From Armatimonadota bacterium (GTDB taxonomy: Bacteria; Armatimonadota; Zipacnadia; JAUWAU01), in NCBI GenBank assembly GCA_030601885.1, contig JAUWAU010000005.1, forward strand, positions 62,001 to 126,000: a stretch of 64,000 nucleotides of DNA, written 5' to 3'. Below, in pieces: positions 18,007 through 26,465 of this stretch. Position 1 is the first letter of the stretch, and each line of letters starts with the position of its first letter. A program made the position numbers and the translations under genes. The notes under the pieces were generated by a model. That model ran no database searches. It saw only the letters and a list, made by a program, of their open reading frames with translations, and was not told where the DNA came from.

Positions 18007-21000
18007 CTATTTGGCCTCGCGACTGCGGAAAGCGCAGATGTAATAGTATTCCATCCCCACGACCACGTGTCCCTCACACACCCCCGGTGATGAGACTATG
18101 CCGTAGGATGTGCTTTGCTGCCACATCCGCTCGCCCTTGTCGGCAGACAGCGCATAGAGCGCTCCGTCGCGCGAGCCGACAAAGACGAAGTCGCCGGCGA
18201 CGGCGGCCGAGGAGACGATCTCCTCACCTGTCATGTACACCCATCGCAGCTTCCCGTCCGCCAATTGCAGCGCGTACAGGCCGCCATCGAGCGAGCCGAC
18301 ATACACCGCACCATCAGCCACGGCCGGCGACGAGCGCACGGCGCCCTTCGTCTCGTAACGCCACAGCAGCTCCGGCGACCGCGTCCCCAGCGCATATACG
18401 GCTCCGTCGTCGGAGCCGACGATGACCACGTCGCCATCCGCAGCGATGGCAGGGGACGAGGAGATCTCGCCGCCGGTCGCATAGTCCCACCGCTTCGTAC
18501 CGTCCTCGCAATCGATGGCGTAGAGCCGACCATCCCACGAGCCGACGAATGCGGTGTGGTCAGCAACACACGCTGACGAGTACACCTCTCCTTCAGTGTC
18601 GAACCGCCACCTCTGACGGCCGTCTTGCGCATCGAGGCCGTACACGGCCCCGTCCCAACAGCCGACCACCACCAAGTCATCGACGAAGTTGCACGATGCC
18701 CGTACGGGACGCTTCAGATTGCTGGTCCAAATCTGTGCCCCGCTGCGGGCGTCAAGGGCGTACACCCGCCCGTCATGTGAGCCCACATACAGGATGTTGC
18801 CGTTTATCGCGGGGGAAGACTCCACCCGATCCTGTGTCTTGAAACGCCATCGCAGAGCGCCTGTTGGCAACTCGAGGCAGTACACACAGCCGTCGCGAGC
18901 GCCGATGTACACCAGCTCGTTCACCACAGCGGGCGAACTGGCCACGAAGTCGGCGGCGCGGTAGCGCCAGGCTTCCTCCAGCGGCGGAGCCACCGTCTCG
19001 GCGGACGCGCCTGATCGGCTCGAGTCCTTGTGGAACATGTCCCAAGAGGGTGCGGCGTCTCCCCGGTGCTGCTGCGCCTTCGCCAGATCCCCACGGGCTG
19101 CCGCGATGAGCCGGGCGCCCTCCTCATCCCGGCATGCCGCCTCCGCCTGCGTGAGCTCCGCCCCCGCCTCCTCCAGGCGCCGAGCGCTCAGGTGCACCCG
19201 GGCAAGCACATAGTGGGCCTGCGCCGACGACTCTACATCGGAGCTACTGCCCAGGGCTGCGAACACGTCCGGATCGCTCCCCACGACGGCGAGTACCTCC
19301 GCAGCGGACCATGACGACGCCGGACCGGCGCTGAGAAGCTTAATCAGTGATCCGGTGAGACGCGCGTCCGGCAGGCTCTGCAGCGCCTGTGCCGCCGCGC
19401 GCCGGACGCCGGCGTCGCCGTCCTCGAGGCGCGCCAGCAACTCGCGGGCTCCGCGTTGGCTGCCGATCCTACCCAGAGCGCGTGCAGCTCCGTCGCGCAC
19501 TTTCGCCGAGCTATCCTTGAGTGCCGCAATCAGTTGGCGCTCATTCTCCTTCAGCCCTGCTTCCGTCTGGGCCCGCACCTCGGGCGACTCCTCGTCCAAG
19601 GCGTCAACGAGCAGCGGCAGCGCCCGCCGATCGTCCAATTGTGCCAATGCCTCCACCGCGATGCGGCGAACGGCAGAGGCGTGATCGTGCAGCATGTCCC
19701 GCAGCAAGGGGAACTGCCGCTCTCTGAGTTCCTCCAGGCGACCGCGCCAGTAGTCGAGTTCGAAGCTGTGCGCAGACGCACTCCGAATGACCAAGGCAAG
19801 CTCGTCCCGGGACATGGGCACCGAATCCCGGTACTCGTGCACCAGATTGAGCTCATCCGAGTGCATCAAAATGCCAAACTTGCGCCAGCTATTGAGCTGG
19901 CGCCCCAATAGCTCCTGCACATCCTTGATGCGCAGCTCGCGCTCCGAGATCCAGTCGCGTATGGCGTGGGCCACATATTCGTGGACGAGCTCGAATGTCC
20001 CGGGAGCCGCCTCGACCTCGCGTATCATGCGCAGGTCCACCAGGTGAGCAATGACCCGCGCGGTGAACTCGACTCCGTCAGCGCGCTCGGCCGCCATCTC
20101 CTCCAACGACAGGCTCGCCCGGGTCTCGTGCGCCGTGATCAACAGTTTCAGCATATTGCGGGCGGCCACCCGTTCTCGCCGCGCGAGCCGGGACAGCACC
20201 TTCCGCACCCAGTTGTCCAGTATCGTCTGCGCGCGTCCCTCCTGCTCGTACAGCTTCATGCCCATGAAGTGCTGGCCCTCGGACAACACACCGTAGAGCC
20301 GATCGCACACGATCTGAAGCTGCGGTGGCTCAACGCCCTCTTTGTACAGGTCGTCCACGATCCGGTCCGCCAATGCCGGGTCCACGTGGATGGCGAAGTG
20401 CGCCGCCGGTTTCGTGATAGCGCTCTCTGCCTCGTCTCGCCGGAGGCGGCTGAGTCGATACATGTTATCGAATATCTGCGGAATTCGGCTGCGGAGCTGA
20501 AAGAGCTCCCCCAGGAAGTCCTCGCGCACCGCGATCACAAAGCGCACGGATGGGTCGCAGCCGGCGATGGCGTTGCTGAGCTCGTCGAGGAACGAGTCCC
20601 GTGCCGGTTGGCCGAGACGCACGAAGTGCTCCTCGAACTGATCGAGAATGATGAGCACCGGCTTCGGAAGCATGGCAGCGGCCCGATCGATGAGCAGCGC
20701 CACCGGGCACTCGAGCAGGTGGGGATCGACCGCCGCGCCATACTGATCCACTGCATCCGCGACGGTTGCCTTGAGGCTCTGGGATGGGTCGTCGAGGCCG
20801 CGCACGTATATGGGCAGGTACTCGGCTCGCTCCTGCTCGTCCTGGCCCTGCACGGCCGCCATGAGTCCGGCCTTCAGCAGTGAGGTCTTGCCCATGCCAG
20901 AAGCGCCGAACAGCACCACCAGCCGCTGATGCTCGACCATATCGCAGAGCGCATCGGTGTCGCGCTCGCGGCCGAAGAACAGGTCTGCGTGCTTGGAGTC

Positions 21001-21966
21001 GAAATGCTCCAGGAAACGATATGGCCCGCCAGGCAGCAGGGTGATGTCCATCTTCTTTTGCATGCTGCGGTGGCGGTGGCGACGCCGGACGAGCCGGGTA
21101 TGGAGCTGGGCGAAGAAGGCGTCAAAGCTGCCAAGCTCGCGGCACAGCACGTTCTCTCGGCAGCCACGTTCAGACAACAGCCTGACCGCCCGCGGAAGGT
21201 ATTCGTGGAAGCCCACGCTGTCGGGGCTGTCTAGCTTGAGGTCATCGAACGCCTCACGGTCCCCCACGGGGACGCGTTCTGAGACCCAGAACAGCCGGCC
21301 ACCCGTGCTGCTGACGAAGCGCAGTAGCGGGCGATCGCGCTCCCCGATATTGGCCAGAATGCACGTCTTGGCGGACTGTTCCTCTATTATGTCGGCGACG
21401 CGTCGGAGATTCTCCAGACACTCGTCTCGCGTCAGCGGCAACACTCGGGAGTTGATGTCGCCGAGCAATTTCACGATGACGACCCGCGACGATTCCTCGA
21501 GGGCGAGCCGGATCTCGTCTGCCGTCGTCGTCGGCACTACGCACAGTATGTACTCTCTGCCGGCGAGTAGGCGCTGCTGCTCCAGCGTCTGCTCGAGAAG
21601 CCCGTCAATGGACGTGGTGAAGATAGTGCTGAAATACTGCTCTCTGATGAGCCCGGCAAGGCGGATGTGTCCCTCCGAGGGCCGACACTCCTCAAAGTAG
21701 CCTCGGACGATGCGGCAGCGCTCGATGTTGTCTGGTACGTCGCCCGCGAGCCGGGCCAGTGCGCGCTGCACCGCGGGGGCGCTCTCATCCACTTCGTGGG
21801 GGGGGAGCAGCTCTCGCTCGATGGCCCATCGGATGGCAGCCTCTCCCAGCAGCTCCTTCGTGGTGCGCCGCATTGGCTGCAGAGGAAAGCCGGAGCCGAC
21901 GAACAGAGCGTGTTTGCGCACCTCGCCGCGCTCCACCTTGAGTATGTCAACAAGCGGTGCAATCAT
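18007..21966 (-). CDS. SIR2-like / STAND NTPase / HEAT / PQQ-propeller protein, candidate immune sensor
   Basis: 1,319 residues from the ATG at 21966; a TTG nine bases upstream is also in frame. Residues about 17-290 resemble the SIR2_2 fold, with ALFVGSGFPL, then FTTSIDGLLE, then VKLLGDI. The usual catalytic Asn of TTN.D is Ser119, and the His of KLHGD is Leu168. A STAND/AAA NTPase follows: FFGRERDTDAL, Walker A LFGASGMGKTS with Lys360, Walker B LIILDQFEEH, and a downstream helical and winged region. HEAT-like repeats lie near residues 750-900. A C-terminal PQQ-type propeller (about 965-1315) has repeats such as VYVGSLDGGLYALQLADGKL. This order matches SIR2-STAND (Avs5-like) anti-phage proteins, in which the C-terminus senses and the N-terminus kills by NAD loss. 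Defence is inference. It is a single gene next to a tRNA. Confidence 0.8.
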   Translation of the reverse strand: MIAPLVDILKVERGEVRKHALFVGSGFPLQPMRRTTKELLGEAAIRWAIERELLPPHEVDESAPAVQRALARLAGDVPDNIERCRIVRGYFEECRPSEGHIRLAGLIREQYFSTIFTTSIDGLLEQTLEQQRLLAGREYILCVVPTTTADEIRLALEESSRVVIVKLLGDINSRVLPLTRDECLENLRRVADIIEEQSAKTCILANIGERDRPLLRFVSSTGGRLFWVSERVPVGDREAFDDLKLDSPDSVGFHEYLPRAVRLLSERGCRENVLCRELGSFDAFFAQLHTRLVRRRHRHRSMQKKMDITLLPGGPYRFLEHFDSKHADLFFGRERDTDALCDMVEHQRLVVLFGASGMGKTSLLKAGLMAAVQGQDEQERAEYLPIYVRGLDDPSQSLKATVADAVDQYGAAVDPHLLECPVALLIDRAAAMLPKPVLIILDQFEEHFVRLGQPARDSFLDELSNAIAGCDPSVRFVIAVREDFLGELFQLRSRIPQIFDNMYRLSRLRRDEAESAITKPAAHFAIHVDPALADRIVDDLYKEGVEPPQLQIVCDRLYGVLSEGQHFMGMKLYEQEGRAQTILDNWVRKVLSRLARRERVAARNMLKLLITAHETRASLSLEEMAAERADGVEFTARVIAHLVDLRMIREVEAAPGTFELVHEYVAHAIRDWISERELRIKDVQELLGRQLNSWRKFGILMHSDELNLVHEYRDSVPMSRDELALVIRSASAHSFELDYWRGRLEELRERQFPLLRDMLHDHASAVRRIAVEALAQLDDRRALPLLVDALDEESPEVRAQTEAGLKENERQLIAALKDSSAKVRDGAARALGRIGSQRGARELLARLEDGDAGVRRAAAQALQSLPDARLTGSLIKLLSAGPASSWSAAEVLAVVGSDPDVFAALGSSSDVESSAQAHYVLARVHLSARRLEEAGAELTQAEAACRDEEGARLIAAARGDLAKAQQHRGDAAPSWDMFHKDSSRSGASAETVAPPLEEAWRYRAADFVASSPAVVNELVYIGARDGCVYCLELPTGALRWRFKTQDRVESSPAINGNILYVGSHDGRVYALDARSGAQIWTSNLKRPVRASCNFVDDLVVVGCWDGAVYGLDAQDGRQRWRFDTEGEVYSSACVADHTAFVGSWDGRLYAIDCEDGTKRWDYATGGEISSSPAIAADGDVVIVGSDDGAVYALGTRSPELLWRYETKGAVRSSPAVADGAVYVGSLDGGLYALQLADGKLRWVYMTGEEIVSSAAVAGDFVFVGSRDGALYALSADKGERMWQQSTSYGIVSSPGVCEGHVVVGMEYYYICAFRSREAK

Positions 21967-22059
21967 GTATCCCAACGCCCTTGGACAGGCACCCGTCCCG
22001 CCTCAGGCCGCCCGAGTCTCCCGCGCTCATCGTCGTTGCGTGGTTCAGGCAAATAACAC

Positions 22060-22134
22060 TGGTGGGCCCACCTGGGTTCGAACCAGGGACCAACCGGTTA
22101 TGAGCCGGTCGCTCTGCCGCTGAGCTATGGGCCC
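22060..22134 (-). tRNA. tRNA with CAT anticodon (Met, or Ile2 after lysidine modification)
   Basis: A complete cloverleaf with encoded CCA. The acceptor stem GGGCCCA / TGGGCCC is perfect, the anticodon loop is CTCATAA, and the T arm contains GGTTCGAACC. The sequence alone does not settle elongator Met versus Ile2. Confidence 0.95.
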
Positions 22135-22246: not shown

Positions 22247-24349
22247 TTATTCGAGATAGTCCTTGAGCCGTCGGCTTCGGCTCGGGTGCCGGAGCTTCTT
22301 GAGCGCCTTCGCCTCGATCTGCCGGATGCGCTCTCGGGTAACCTCAAAGATGTGACCCACCTCTTCGAGCGTCCGCGAGTACCCGTCGTCGAGGCCAAAG
22401 CGAAGCTTGAGCACCTCCCGCTCCCGCGGGCTGAGCGTATCCAGCACGCGCTCGAGTTGCTCTCGCAGCACCAGATTGCTCGCCGCGTCTACGGGTGACT
22501 TCACCTCGTCGTCGGGGACGAAATCGCCCAGGTGACTGTTCTCCTCCTCACCCACCGGTGCTTCAAGCGAGAGCGGCTCGGGGGCGATGCGCTTTATCTC
22601 CGACACCCGCTCCAGAGGAATGTCCATCTCCATGGCGACCTCCTCGAGCGTCGGCTCACGCCCGAGCTGCTGGAGCAGTCGCCGCGAGGTCTTCACCAGT
22701 CGGTTGATCGTCTCGACCATGTGCACCGGGATGCGGATGATGCGCCCCTGATCGGCTATAGCGCGGGTGATAGCCTGCCGAATCCACCATGTTGCGTATG
22801 TGCTGAATTTGTAGCCCTTGCGGAAGTCGAACTTCTCCACCGCCCGCATCAGCCCCATGTTGCCCTCCTGAATCAGGTCCAGGAATGACATGGCGCAGCG
22901 GCCGGTATACTTCTTGGCGATGCTCACCACGAGTCGCAGATTCGCCTCCGCCAGCTTCTTGACCGCTTCCTCATCCTTGAGCTTGATGGTCTCAGGCGTC
23001 ACGGCCGTGGGGTCCATCTGCTGGCTGAAGGTAGCCTTCATGGTACAGTCCAGAGCCACATCCTTCTGGCCGGTGCTCGGCTGCGTGGCAATCACGGCCG
23101 TCTGGTGCGGCTCCTCGGCAGTCACAAAGTTGAGGCGCACTTCCCGGGGCAGGGCCACCCGCCCAATGCTGCGTATGCCTCGCTGCCGCCCTCGGAGCGT
23201 CAGCCGGTATTTCATGCCGAGCGTGAGCTGCGCATCGGGCATGAAGCGAATCTGACGCGACGTGTCCTCATAGTGCACGACCCCACTGACCACATGGCCC
23301 ATGGCATCGGCGAGAGTGACCGTGCCATTGTTCACGGTGGCCGGATCCAGTCGCTTGTCGAACTTCACCACTATGGGTGCCGCTGCCGGCACATCCTCGT
23401 CCCCGTTTTCCGGTGAGGACCACACCGGCTTCGGCGCCATCTTGCGCCCGACGGTGACGAATTCCCACTTCACGCCACGGCGCATGGCCCGGCCGTCGAG
23501 CGTCTTGACGCCCGACTTGCCCGACTTGATGGTCACTTCGTACGTGGTGCGGCACCGCAACTTGTGCTCGGGTACGACGACGAGTTCGTTCCGCTCAGGC
23601 CCGTACTGCACCGATGTCGGCACGGCAGAGCCGCCACCACGACGCATCATTACCGTCTCCGGGGTCGCCGTGCTCAGATCGATGCTCTCGCTGAAGCGGA
23701 TCCAAATGGCGGCACACACATCTACGCCGCGCTCCTGGGGCTCGGGCTCCATGTCCACGACGCGCAGCGACGCGTTCGCCGGGGCTGTCACGAAGAAGAA
23801 GTTGAAGTCACTGCGCAGCCGCGCGCCGGCGATGTCGCGGATGCCGCTCTCGCCCCCCCGAATGACGACCAGGTACTCGGTCTCCGGCTCAAGTCGCTCC
23901 GCGGGCTTGAAGCTGAGGGTGTTGGTCATGCGGTCATAGACGACTTCGCCATCACCCTTTTGGATGCGTCTGGCCAGCTCCGTCTCGGCCTTGGCCGACA
24001 GCAACGGCACGCGGCCGATCTCTCGCAGGTACATCCGCACCGAATCGTCCACGGGAACGGCCTCGAGAGCCGCCAGCGCTCCTCGCTTCGCAGCCCCATC
24101 GTCATCATCCTGATCGCTCTGCTGGCCTTTGCCACCGTCCCCATCATCCGCCCCCGCGTCCACGATCTTGATGCCCTCTTCTGCGAAGATCTGGTAAACC
24201 TCATCGATCGCGGCGCTGTCGAGGTCCTCGCGGTCGGCCAGAGCGTCCTGAATCTCCTTGTAGGTAAGAGATCCCTTCTCCTTGCCGGTGGCCAAGAGCC
24301 GCTGTATCGCTTCGTTATCTCGTGTCCCGCGATCCTTCCGCTCCGCCAA
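22247..24349 (-). CDS. rpoD: primary sigma factor RpoD with a large Ig-domain insertion
   Basis: About 700 residues. The start is non-ATG. AGGGAG touches the first in-frame TTG (24358) but is 9 bases from the next TTG (24349), which I prefer. Numbered from 24358: region 1.1 is residues 15-65, an acidic linker is 68-88, and region 1.2 is 103-136 ([19 protein letters not shown]). Then 137-462 are foreign Ig-like repeats. From 463, [20 protein letters not shown] resumes region 2. [13 protein letters not shown] (2.4), region 3, and region 4 ([15 protein letters not shown] and [16 protein letters not shown]) follow, so promoter recognition looks intact. GRCAM replaces the usual GRGM near region 2.1. 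In E. coli a 245-residue non-conserved region sits at the same place. It lies 130 bases downstream of dnaG, the classic pairing. Confidence 0.95.
22973..23950 (-). other. Big_5 (SbsA-like) Ig array inserted in rpoD
   Basis: Residues 137-462 of RpoD. The array is half a domain (137-193, the second half: [14 protein letters not shown] to FNFFFVT), two full domains (about 199-303 and 308-414), and half a domain (419-462, the first half: [20 protein letters not shown]). The two halves together make one complete unit, so the array is circularly permuted. K-G-D-G-E at the left edge and K-D-E-E at the right edge are similar at DNA level. Confidence 0.8.
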
Positions 24350-24479
24350 ACGTGTCAACTCCCTTCGAAACTGGCGACATCACTATACGAGGCGCACGCG
24401 CGCACTAAAATCCGGCCCGCAACGCGCTCACGCTTTCCCATCGCATACAACGTTTTCTACCATAGACCTTGGATGCCCG

Positions 24480-26465
24480 TCACCGGCCACCCGTTTCGTC
24501 GGTCTTCCCCAGCCGCAGCTTCACATCCTCCGTCACGTACGGCCGGACATCTCCGCTGCCACGGAACTGCCGGACGAGCCGCTCGTACTCTCTATAGCAC
24601 TCATCATCGGGGGAGAGATCGCCGCGCTCGAGTGCGGCAACTATCTCCTCCTGAAGCTCATCAAAGCTCTTCTCACCACCGCGATCTGTGGGCAGATGCG
24701 CTGCTCTTGCCGTATCCGTGGCCGAATACAGCTCGGGAAGGCCTCTGGCCTCCGCGTATTTCCGCAGCTTGCCTACGTCCTCCTCCAGCGCCTCGAGCCG
24801 CGCCCTAATGTCCACATCCATCAGTGACAGCTCGATGGCGTGACGCTTGGCCGTGGCATCAGCGACCGTCGCGATGGCATCGCCCGGCTGAGCAGGTGCT
24901 GAGCCACGTATCGCCGCAGCGATGGCGGTAGCAATGTCTCGATGGGCTCCCACAAGCAGATCCTCCGGCGGCATCAGCCCGAAGAGCGCTGCGGCAAACT
25001 CGCCATCCTGCAGCGCCGCCGCCAGGAGCTGCTCCTCCACCTCAACACATCCGGCTGGAATGCCCGCCGCGCTCTTGGCAATCGCTTCCGCGGCGAACCG
25101 CATGTCGCGGTCACGAGCAGGCGAAGGGGGCGCCGAGACGCGCCGTGCAGGCCGACCGCCCCCTCGTCGGATCTCCGAAAGAATGGCAGATTGCACCGCC
25201 TCCGCCTGCGCGCGATCGCGGCAGTAGCGGTCGGCAACGCGGGCGAGGTACTCCACTCGTCGCCCCTCGTGCCGGACGCGCCGGAGGATATCGGCCGCCT
25301 GCCGCATCTTCGCCACCATCTGCTCCGGACTCTCGCCGGGCCCGTCACTGAAGACCTGTTCGAGCTGATACTCCACCAGGCCGCTTCGCCTTTCGAGCAA
25401 TTCCTCAAACGCCCTCGCGCCCCGCGCGGTGATCAGGTCGTCCGGGTCCTCCCCTTCCGGCAGCACCACGATCTTGACCTCCGCCGGCGCGTCCTCGAAC
25501 GTGTCCGCCGCGCGCAGGACGGCGCGCACGCCGGCAGAATCCGCATCGAACGCCAGCACCACCTCGTCGGCGTAGCGCGACATCAGCGCCACGTGTGCAT
25601 CGGTCAGTGAGGTACCCAGCGTAGCGACCGCGTTTTGTATTCCAGCACGCCACAGCGCTATGGCGTCCGTATATCCTTCTACCACCACTGCCGTGCCCGT
25701 GTCGCTGATGGCCTCTCGCGCCCAGTTCAGACCGTACAGCAGGCGACCCTTGCGGAATACCGGCGTCTCCGGCGTGTTGATGTACTTGGCATCCTCGTCG
25801 GCCGAGAGCGTACGGCCGCCGAACCCCAGCACGTGCCCCGTCACGTCGATGATGGGAAAAGTGATACGGTGACGGAACCGATCGTACTGACCGGCCCCGG
25901 ACGGCCTGGGGATCAACAGGCCCGCACTGACGCCGATCTGGGGCTTTACCCTATTGCCGACGAGGGCCCTGCAGAGATCATCCCACGATTCCCGCGCATA
26001 GCCAAGGCCGAATCGGTCCACCGCATCGTCATCGTACCCGCGCTCTGCCAGATACCTGCGCGCTGCCTCCGCCTCAGGCAGTGCTTTCAGGTTCCCCCGG
26101 AAATGTTCGTTGGCGATTTCGTTGGCCTGATAGATGAGATCGCGTTCGCTCGCGCGCCGTGCCGCCTCCGGCGACCGCGCCACCTCTACTCCCACTCGCT
26201 GCGCCAGTCGTTCGAGTGCCTCGGGAAAGGTGAGCTTCTCCCGACGCATGACGAAGTCGAAGGCGTCACCGGCCTCGCCGCAGCCGAAGCACTTCCAGTA
26301 GCCCGTGTCGCGCTGTATCGTGAACGACGGCGTCTTCTCCGCGTGAAACGGGCACAGACCCTTGTAATTCTTACCCGATTTCTTCAGTGCGACGTGTTCG
26401 CCAATCAGCTCAACGATGTCAACGAGCTGTCGGATGTCTTCCTTCGTCGCTTGTCCGCGTCTCAT
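24480..26465 (-). CDS. dnaG: DNA primase
   Basis: 661 residues, somewhat longer than the usual 580-620. The N-terminal CHC2 zinc finger is complete (C38, H41, C59, C62 in LCPFHAEKTPSF and WKCFGCGEAGD). The primase core has RITFPI, and the TOPRIM domain carries VVVEGYTDAIAL and LAFDADSAGVRA with the catalytic Glu and Asp-x-Asp. The C-terminal region (about 440-661), which binds the replicative helicase in known primases, is long and charged. It makes RNA primers for replication. It is followed by rpoD, the standard order of the macromolecular synthesis operon. rpsU is not upstream; a hairpin and a gene relic lie there instead. The ribosome site is weak. Confidence 0.95.
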   Translation of the reverse strand: MRRGQATKEDIRQLVDIVELIGEHVALKKSGKNYKGLCPFHAEKTPSFTIQRDTGYWKCFGCGEAGDAFDFVMRREKLTFPEALERLAQRVGVEVARSPEAARRASERDLIYQANEIANEHFRGNLKALPEAEAARRYLAERGYDDDAVDRFGLGYARESWDDLCRALVGNRVKPQIGVSAGLLIPRPSGAGQYDRFRHRITFPIIDVTGHVLGFGGRTLSADEDAKYINTPETPVFRKGRLLYGLNWAREAISDTGTAVVVEGYTDAIALWRAGIQNAVATLGTSLTDAHVALMSRYADEVVLAFDADSAGVRAVLRAADTFEDAPAEVKIVVLPEGEDPDDLITARGARAFEELLERRSGLVEYQLEQVFSDGPGESPEQMVAKMRQAADILRRVRHEGRRVEYLARVADRYCRDRAQAEAVQSAILSEIRRGGGRPARRVSAPPSPARDRDMRFAAEAIAKSAAGIPAGCVEVEEQLLAAALQDGEFAAALFGLMPPEDLLVGAHRDIATAIAAAIRGSAPAQPGDAIATVADATAKRHAIELSLMDVDIRARLEALEEDVGKLRKYAEARGLPELYSATDTARAAHLPTDRGGEKSFDELQEEIVAALERGDLSPDDECYREYERLVRQFRGSGDVRPYVTEDVKLRLGKTDETGGR

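Follow-up and report, generated by a model that had tools for sequence, protein, structure and literature searches.

A primary sigma factor from a class of Armatimonadota with a predicted circularly permuted array of three Ig-like Big_5 units between regions 1.2 and 2.1

The housekeeping sigma factor RpoD of an uncultured class of Armatimonadota carries a large in-frame insert between sigma regions 1.2 and 2.1. The insert reads as a circularly permuted array of three Big_5 units, with two whole domains and one domain split across both ends. Few bacterial regulators are as conserved as the primary sigma factor. Sigma factors are cytoplasmic and Big_5 domains are usually extracytoplasmic, with Ig-like Big_5 modules known mainly from cell-surface proteins. 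The class factor is filed here as an RpoD with a new kind of domain in the slot of the E. coli non-conserved region (NCR). No report of an Ig-bearing sigma factor was found in the literature searched, in which the larger result sets were covered in part.

The DNA analyzed (the window, 64,000 nucleotides) belongs to a draft genome (G000) of 90 contigs, 95.45% complete and with 6.23% estimated contamination. The features of the rpoD locus and its neighbors are as follows.

22247 to 24349, minus strand: rpoD coding sequence, 700 amino acids, with a TTG start inferred from the sequence and the alignment of relatives
About 9 nt upstream of this start at 24349, minus strand: purine-rich GAAGGGAG stretch
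24098 to 24316, minus strand: sigma region 1.1 (Pfam PF03979, 1e-16)
23951 to 24046, minus strand: sigma region 1.2, with KGD at its end (Pfam PF00140, 3.5e-16)
22742 to 22954, minus strand: sigma region 2, with ATWWIRQ intact (Pfam PF04542, 5.3e-22)
22484 to 22714, minus strand: sigma region 3 (Pfam PF04539, 2e-25)
22286 to 22447, minus strand: sigma region 4 (Pfam PF04545, 6e-25)
24480 to 26465, minus strand: dnaG (primase), directly upstream of rpoD (Pfam DNAG_N, Zn_ribbon_DnaG, Toprim)
22060 to 22134, minus strand: tRNA-Met (CAT), just downstream of rpoD
18007 to 21975, minus strand: 1322-amino-acid protein with a SIR2-like start (weak PADLOC matches), an nSTAND1/NACHT ATPase, HEAT repeats and a PQQ-type propeller; possibly a defence protein

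The group 1 regions 1.1, 1.2, 2, 3 and 4 were all present, each above its Pfam cut-off, and the ATWWIRQ of region 2 is presumably the promoter-melting motif. They lie in one open frame from 22247 to 24376 (minus strand), which stays open upstream of the TTG start to 24376. The protein passed the NCBIfam model TIGR02393 RpoD_Cterm (378.4 bits against a cut-off of 354) and scored below the thresholds of the full-length equivalog models, for example 530.4 against 572 bits for NF006666. The adjoining dnaG is a usual neighbor of primary sigma genes. The five regions, the RpoD_Cterm model and dnaG all agree with the preliminary description of this DNA, which had called the gene a primary sigma factor, and on its sequence the gene is the primary (group 1, housekeeping) sigma factor RpoD of this class. 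A second normal rpoD, which the same description had named as evidence that would weaken its claim, was looked for, and the window genome, at its 95.45% completeness, showed no further intact primary sigma gene. That genome holds 34 sigma region-2 matches, and the four other matches from the RpoD search were looked at for this purpose. The best of the four is a fusion frame with regions 1.2 to 3 and no region 4 after them, and the remaining three are 26-30% identical to RpoD.

The insert occupies 22973 to 23950 (minus strand), exactly 978 bp or 326 codons, and sits in frame exactly between regions 1.2 and 2.1 with the junction KGD^EEA. It starts after KGD at 23950 and stops before EEA at 22973; its first residue is Gly and its last is Asp, and its G+C resembles that of the surroundings. 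The two flanks are contiguous in insert-free relatives, for example at locus L078, where they read QGDEEA. A Pfam scan of RpoD placed Big_5 (PF13205) in four stretches between regions 1.2 and 2 (133 bits), and the insert alone matched Big_5 at E 1.5e-39, far above the cut-off. From the N-terminus, the four stretches cover profile positions 52-105, 4-105, 4-85 and 6-54, and they correspond to the following parts.

23780 to 23950, minus strand: D1a, C-terminal half of the split Big_5 domain (profile 52-105), border drawn by eye from the AlphaFold strands
23447 to 23779, minus strand: D2, intact Big_5 domain (profile 4-105, 49.5 bits)
23117 to 23446, minus strand: D3, intact Big_5 domain (profile 4-85, 48.9 bits)
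22973 to 23116, minus strand: D1b, N-terminal half of the split Big_5 domain (profile 6-54, 23.6 bits), with KLKD at its end

The N-terminal end of the insert is thus the second half of a unit and its C-terminal end the first half of one, with two other units between them, which indicates a circularly permuted three-unit array. When D1a and D1b were joined in the normal order, the score was 53.1 bits over profile positions 6-105, against 27.7 and 23.6 bits separately, and the rejoined D1 outscored both intact domains. In a whole-genome Big_5 search, D1b scored 22.9 bits, slightly below the 23.6 cut-off. Rejoined D1, D2 and D3 are all over the Big_5 cut-off, and an Ig-like beta fold is predicted. 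The preliminary description had given three Ig-like units; an Ig-like array of three units' worth was indeed found, and one of the units is split and permuted rather than the third of three plain ones. Its placement of about 326 in-frame residues at 22973 and 23950 between regions 1.2 and 2.1 was exact, and its statement that Big_5 modules fill the slot used by the E. coli NCR was confirmed by the Pfam scan. The insert shares the NCR position; a homologous helical NCR sequence was not found in it, since Pfam gives only Big_5 and the predicted fold is nearly all beta. NCBIfam has no family for the insert.

AlphaFold2 was used to predict the structure of the insert alone from a 30-row alignment. 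The model is nearly all beta, with a mean pLDDT of 93.8 and a pTM of 0.83. The model of the sigma factor reached a mean pLDDT of 80.9 and a pTM of 0.63, with five models that differ (mean pLDDT 80.9 to 70.2). In this model, helix 22-33, the last helix of region 1.2, runs on into strand 37-42 through a linker of 3 residues, and strand 358-361 leads into helix 363-384, the first helix of region 2.1, through a linker of 1 residue. According to the model, two strands of one Ig domain would carry the rod out of the slot. A Foldseek comparison of the insert with the PDB found the Ig modules of LdtMt2 as the best match (E 9.5e-12), followed by the S-layer protein SbsC, with low TM-scores of 0.26-0.33. 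The sequence profile of the insert matched TssM (5.7e-5) and LdtMt2 best. The whole-factor model matched SigA and sigma-70 chains. When the whole-factor profile was compared with solved chains, most matches started at about position 360, without the Ig part (60 of 77 matches listed); among those listed, 8ftd_L aligned from 214 and 9gdo_F from 320. For most of the listed E. coli chains the alignment starts at profile position 359, where the insert ends.

A total of 291 Armatimonadota genomes were searched, 46 of them in the class of the window genome. RpoD was matched at E 1e-60 in 43 of the 46 class genomes, and by the alignment ranges the match ran through the insert in 42; in the other one (G037), it begins inside the insert, at a contig end. 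The search of the class genomes at E 1e-60 gave no RpoD match in G029, G033 and G038, which are 80-85% complete. All 30 aligned class loci, the window included, have an insert of 324-335 amino acids at the same site; these are the best-scoring 30 of 37 wide matches. The divergent class members G003, G005 and G007 carry it as well, 14-15 residues longer. No loss of the insert was seen among the 43 class genomes with an RpoD match, G037 having the end of its insert at the contig edge. A DnaG match was present at all 32 class loci tested, window included, and was weak at one (L038, 3.8e-5). The relatives in the class carry a Big_5 insert at the same RpoD site, a point that the preliminary description had proposed to check.

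Outside the class, 239 of 245 Armatimonadota genomes were matched; among the matches listed, the alignment starts at model position 345 at least, past most of the insert. Nineteen non-class loci were read. The slot is empty in 15, which are at most 7 residues longer than the shortest, and holds an unrelated insert of about 230 amino acids in four (families f30-f32). This unrelated insert (RpoD of L074-L077) is probably helical, judged from sequence only. A Pfam scan of two of these proteins (L074, L076) with an E limit of 0.01 found no family in it, the E. coli-type NCR included. No Ig insert was found among 27 further non-class loci, of which L103 and L121 were uninformative and the rest were judged from partial sequence; among these, L100 resembles the f30-f32 loci, and short additional stretches occur in L112, L113 and L123. 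Some of these best matches may be group 2 and not primary factors. A pattern scan of genome_contigs for the insert, with a three-row alignment, gave 2 loci, both from Armatimonadetes, and one scan of viral_contigs found none.

Phylogenetic analysis of the sigma core without the insert (52 rows) placed all Ig carriers (33 rows) on one side of one branch with a support of 100/99. The f30-f32 rows formed a separate branch (100/97), which gives two changes in all. The Ig branch held when G003, G005, G007 and L029 were added (37 rows, support 97 by a quick method); L029 was not in the 52-row tree and entered the enlarged one without region 1.2. A sigma paralogue in G007 (L159) had a branch length of 10 in the enlarged tree, too long for placement. 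The insert was most likely gained once at the base of the class and then inherited vertically; we infer this direction on an unrooted tree.

Conservation was compared between the insert and the core over the 30 aligned class loci. The mean pairwise identity was 39% in the insert against 85% in the core. dN/dS, computed for the 8 of 435 pairs with the most similar inserts, was 0.13-0.28 for the insert against 0.02-0.06 for the core. The insert is under purifying selection. Columns conserved at 80% or more numbered 17/57 in D1a, 17/111 in D2, 17/110 in D3 and 4/48 in D1b, so that D1a has the highest share and D1b is the least conserved part. Many of the invariant residues look by eye like Ig-framework positions. 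The net charge of the insert ranges from -29 to +8 over the 30 rows. Positions 134, 170, 174 and 199 are basic in 0.91-1.00 of the weighted sequences; by the domain borders drawn here, the D2-D3 linker contains 170 and 174.

No other match to the insert was found in the window genome, and only four Big_5 stretches occur there outside rpoD, so the source of the insert is not visible. Recent copying from a surface gene was rejected, as the genome has no second match. A permuted array with a whole number of units would arise if a longer Big_5 array were cut at the same point of two units that are three apart. The G007 paralogue (L159:1234-2745, minus strand, contig G007:C361) has 130 residues in its slot, which read as a single permuted Big_5 unit without D2-D3. 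Pfam finds only the first half of this unit (profile 4-42, 23.7 bits, at the cut-off), and the second half was recognized by eye. This single permuted unit fits the whole-number rule.

The beta-prime subunit was compared between 15 class rows from 14 genes and 16 other Armatimonadota rows, the latter covering part of the gene; a second piece of class genome G007 (L154) was counted as a class row. RpoC residues 1032-1059 (L094:4907-9505, G000 numbering) were all present (28/28) in each of the 15 class rows, and at most 1 residue was filled in the 15 other rows that span the place. This stretch contains two CxxC pairs, like a small zinc ribbon. RpoC 698-784 was filled by 71-87 of 87 residues in 15/15 class rows and fully present in 1/16 others. 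We take neither stretch to lie near the sigma slot. In the N-terminal 330 residues of beta-prime, only the 8-residue stretch 236-243 distinguished the class, though imperfectly, as 4-8 of the 8 are present in 3/16 other rows; nothing there therefore clearly pairs with the arm. The alignments indicate that the class polymerase is changed in more than one place, at RpoC 1032-1059 besides the sigma insert. Within sigma, a Thr-to-Ile change after region 2.4 separates 33/33 class rows (Ile) from 19/19 others (Thr). Its identification as a known promoter-specificity site was dropped; we take the position to be nine residues further on by E. coli numbering. In region 2, GR (near window 22900) is followed by an extra residue, which is Ser in 30/33 class rows and lacking in 18/19 other rows, with Thr in one (L080, G045).

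Sigma-like fragments were also observed in the class. In the fusion frame of the window genome (L073, G000:C35, 659 amino acids), an ECF-type sigma factor (regions 2 and 4) is joined to a bifunctional-nuclease domain and to sigma regions 1.2-3; the slot of the latter is empty, and region 4 is missing after them. The frame looks like a decayed or repurposed RpoD paralogue. Segments of about 60-100 amino acids resembling sigma region 2 occur in unrelated frames of L155, L156, L157, L158, L162 and L163 (genomes G006, G036, G009, G001, G032 and G023, respectively). In L156 the segment lies between the E1-alpha and E1-beta dehydrogenase halves, with a Pfam match of 22.2 bits, slightly below the cut-off of 24; the arrangement is similar by eye in L157 and partly in L163. 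The other hosts are an esterase-like frame (L155), a BNR-repeat frame (L158) and a short frame (L162). Three region-2-like segments start with DE.A, the motif that follows the Ig insert. With L073 included, such segments were found in 7/44 class genomes, using a search profile built from these segments.

We consider it somewhat probable that the class uses a housekeeping sigma factor whose permuted three-unit Big_5 arm is held rigidly on domain 2 and has a proposed function as a contact or docking surface. The ends of the insert are the halves of D1, so D1 would continue straight from two sigma helices and hold D2-D3 out as a rod. D1 may form a stiff root next to the beta-prime clamp and the upstream promoter DNA, where the E. 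coli NCR sits, and could there tune open-complex stability or promoter escape. The surface of D2-D3 may bind a partner specific to this lineage or make a second contact with the polymerase. The retention across the class suggests that the transcription machinery is handled, or docked onto, in a way not yet explored. The identity of 39% speaks against one tightly conserved contact over the whole surface, and no obvious contact patch stands out because many invariant residues are framework-like. The low conservation of D1b argues against a root under uniform constraint. The variable net charge does not support a general DNA-binding arm, which is not favored. In the review PMC7403470, the contact between the sigma-70 NCR and beta-prime is described as aiding promoter escape, the NCR as contacting DNA at -16/-17, and GrgA and RbpA as binding the NCR.

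The rigid arm was weighed against four other explanations. The chief rival is that the slot takes almost any domain with close ends and that the Ig array folds harmlessly and so stays as a tolerated passenger, which we find doubtful. The unrelated insert in another lineage and the empty slot in 15/19 other loci fit a passenger, as do the paralogue without D2-D3 and an insert with 39% identity and a dN/dS three to six times that of the core. However, no loss was seen in the 43 class genomes with an RpoD match (with the insert end of G037 at a contig edge), the length is near-constant, dN/dS is well below 1 and the predicted fold is intact. Ig modules commonly act as protein-binding rods, and the arm might be a dedicated platform that recruits one class-specific regulator or tethers the polymerase. 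This would parallel the use of the chlamydial NCR by GrgA, and the mostly basic positions, two of them in the D2-D3 linker, would suit it. A candidate partner was not found, however, no strongly conserved non-framework patch was noticed in the alignment columns judged by eye, and the share of conserved columns is lower in D2-D3 than in D1a. We regard such a platform as rather unlikely, even though NCR-binding activators exist according to PMC7403470.

The two remaining explanations deny that the arm is a part of the working sigma factor. A precise in-frame insertion at one site would also be left by a spliced element, an intein or intron whose removal restores a normal sigma factor. Inteins have splice motifs and a terminal Cys or Ser and Asn. 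The insert begins with Gly and ends with Asp, and the Pfam scan gave no intein family, so it was not classed as an intein. The purifying selection and the compact predicted Ig fold also argue against splicing, which is very improbable. The least credible explanation is that assembly or contamination fused a sigma gene with a surface-protein gene. A draft of 90 contigs with 6.23% estimated contamination would allow it, but the junctions are identical in 30/30 aligned loci, DnaG is matched in all 32 class loci tested, and the insert is matched nowhere else in the window genome. The retention of the insert by relatives throughout the class excludes misassembly and refutes the chimera.

Tentatively, the rigid arm may belong to a wider picture in which evolution uses the slot between regions 1.2 and 2.1 as a port for whole modules. 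The Ig rod would have become indispensable and dedicated to housekeeping transcription, in effect a subunit of the holoenzyme, serving as a docking arm or adding a contact with promoter or polymerase, with 1-unit and 3-unit versions in different sigma factors and alongside the CxxC...CxxC change of beta-prime. A class-wide Ig array, apparently acquired once, means that large new structures can be added to the holoenzyme. Within Armatimonadota the slot occurs empty, with an unrelated and probably helical insert, with one Ig unit and with three, which offers a natural test of its role. The permuted D1 shows that an internal stretch of an array can be plugged into another protein if it holds a whole number of units.

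The class factor was compared with known systems. The SigA proteins of B. subtilis, S. aureus and C. difficile are 74, 72 and 69% identical to it over about 240 residues of regions 2-4, but their full chains of 371, 368 and 390 amino acids leave no room for such an insert. LdtMt2, SbsC and, by sequence, the TssM deubiquitinase resemble the insert in their tandem Ig-like domains; unlike it, they are not transcription machinery, and LdtMt2 and SbsC are extracytoplasmic. The f30-f32 insert occupies the same slot in the same phylum, but it is about 230 amino acids long, has no Pfam family (two scanned) and lies on a separate tree branch. The NCR of E. coli sigma-70, also a group 1 factor, is likewise a large insert and fills the same slot. 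It is helical and not Ig-like, whereas the insert of the Armatimonadota class is predicted to be Ig-like and nearly all beta.
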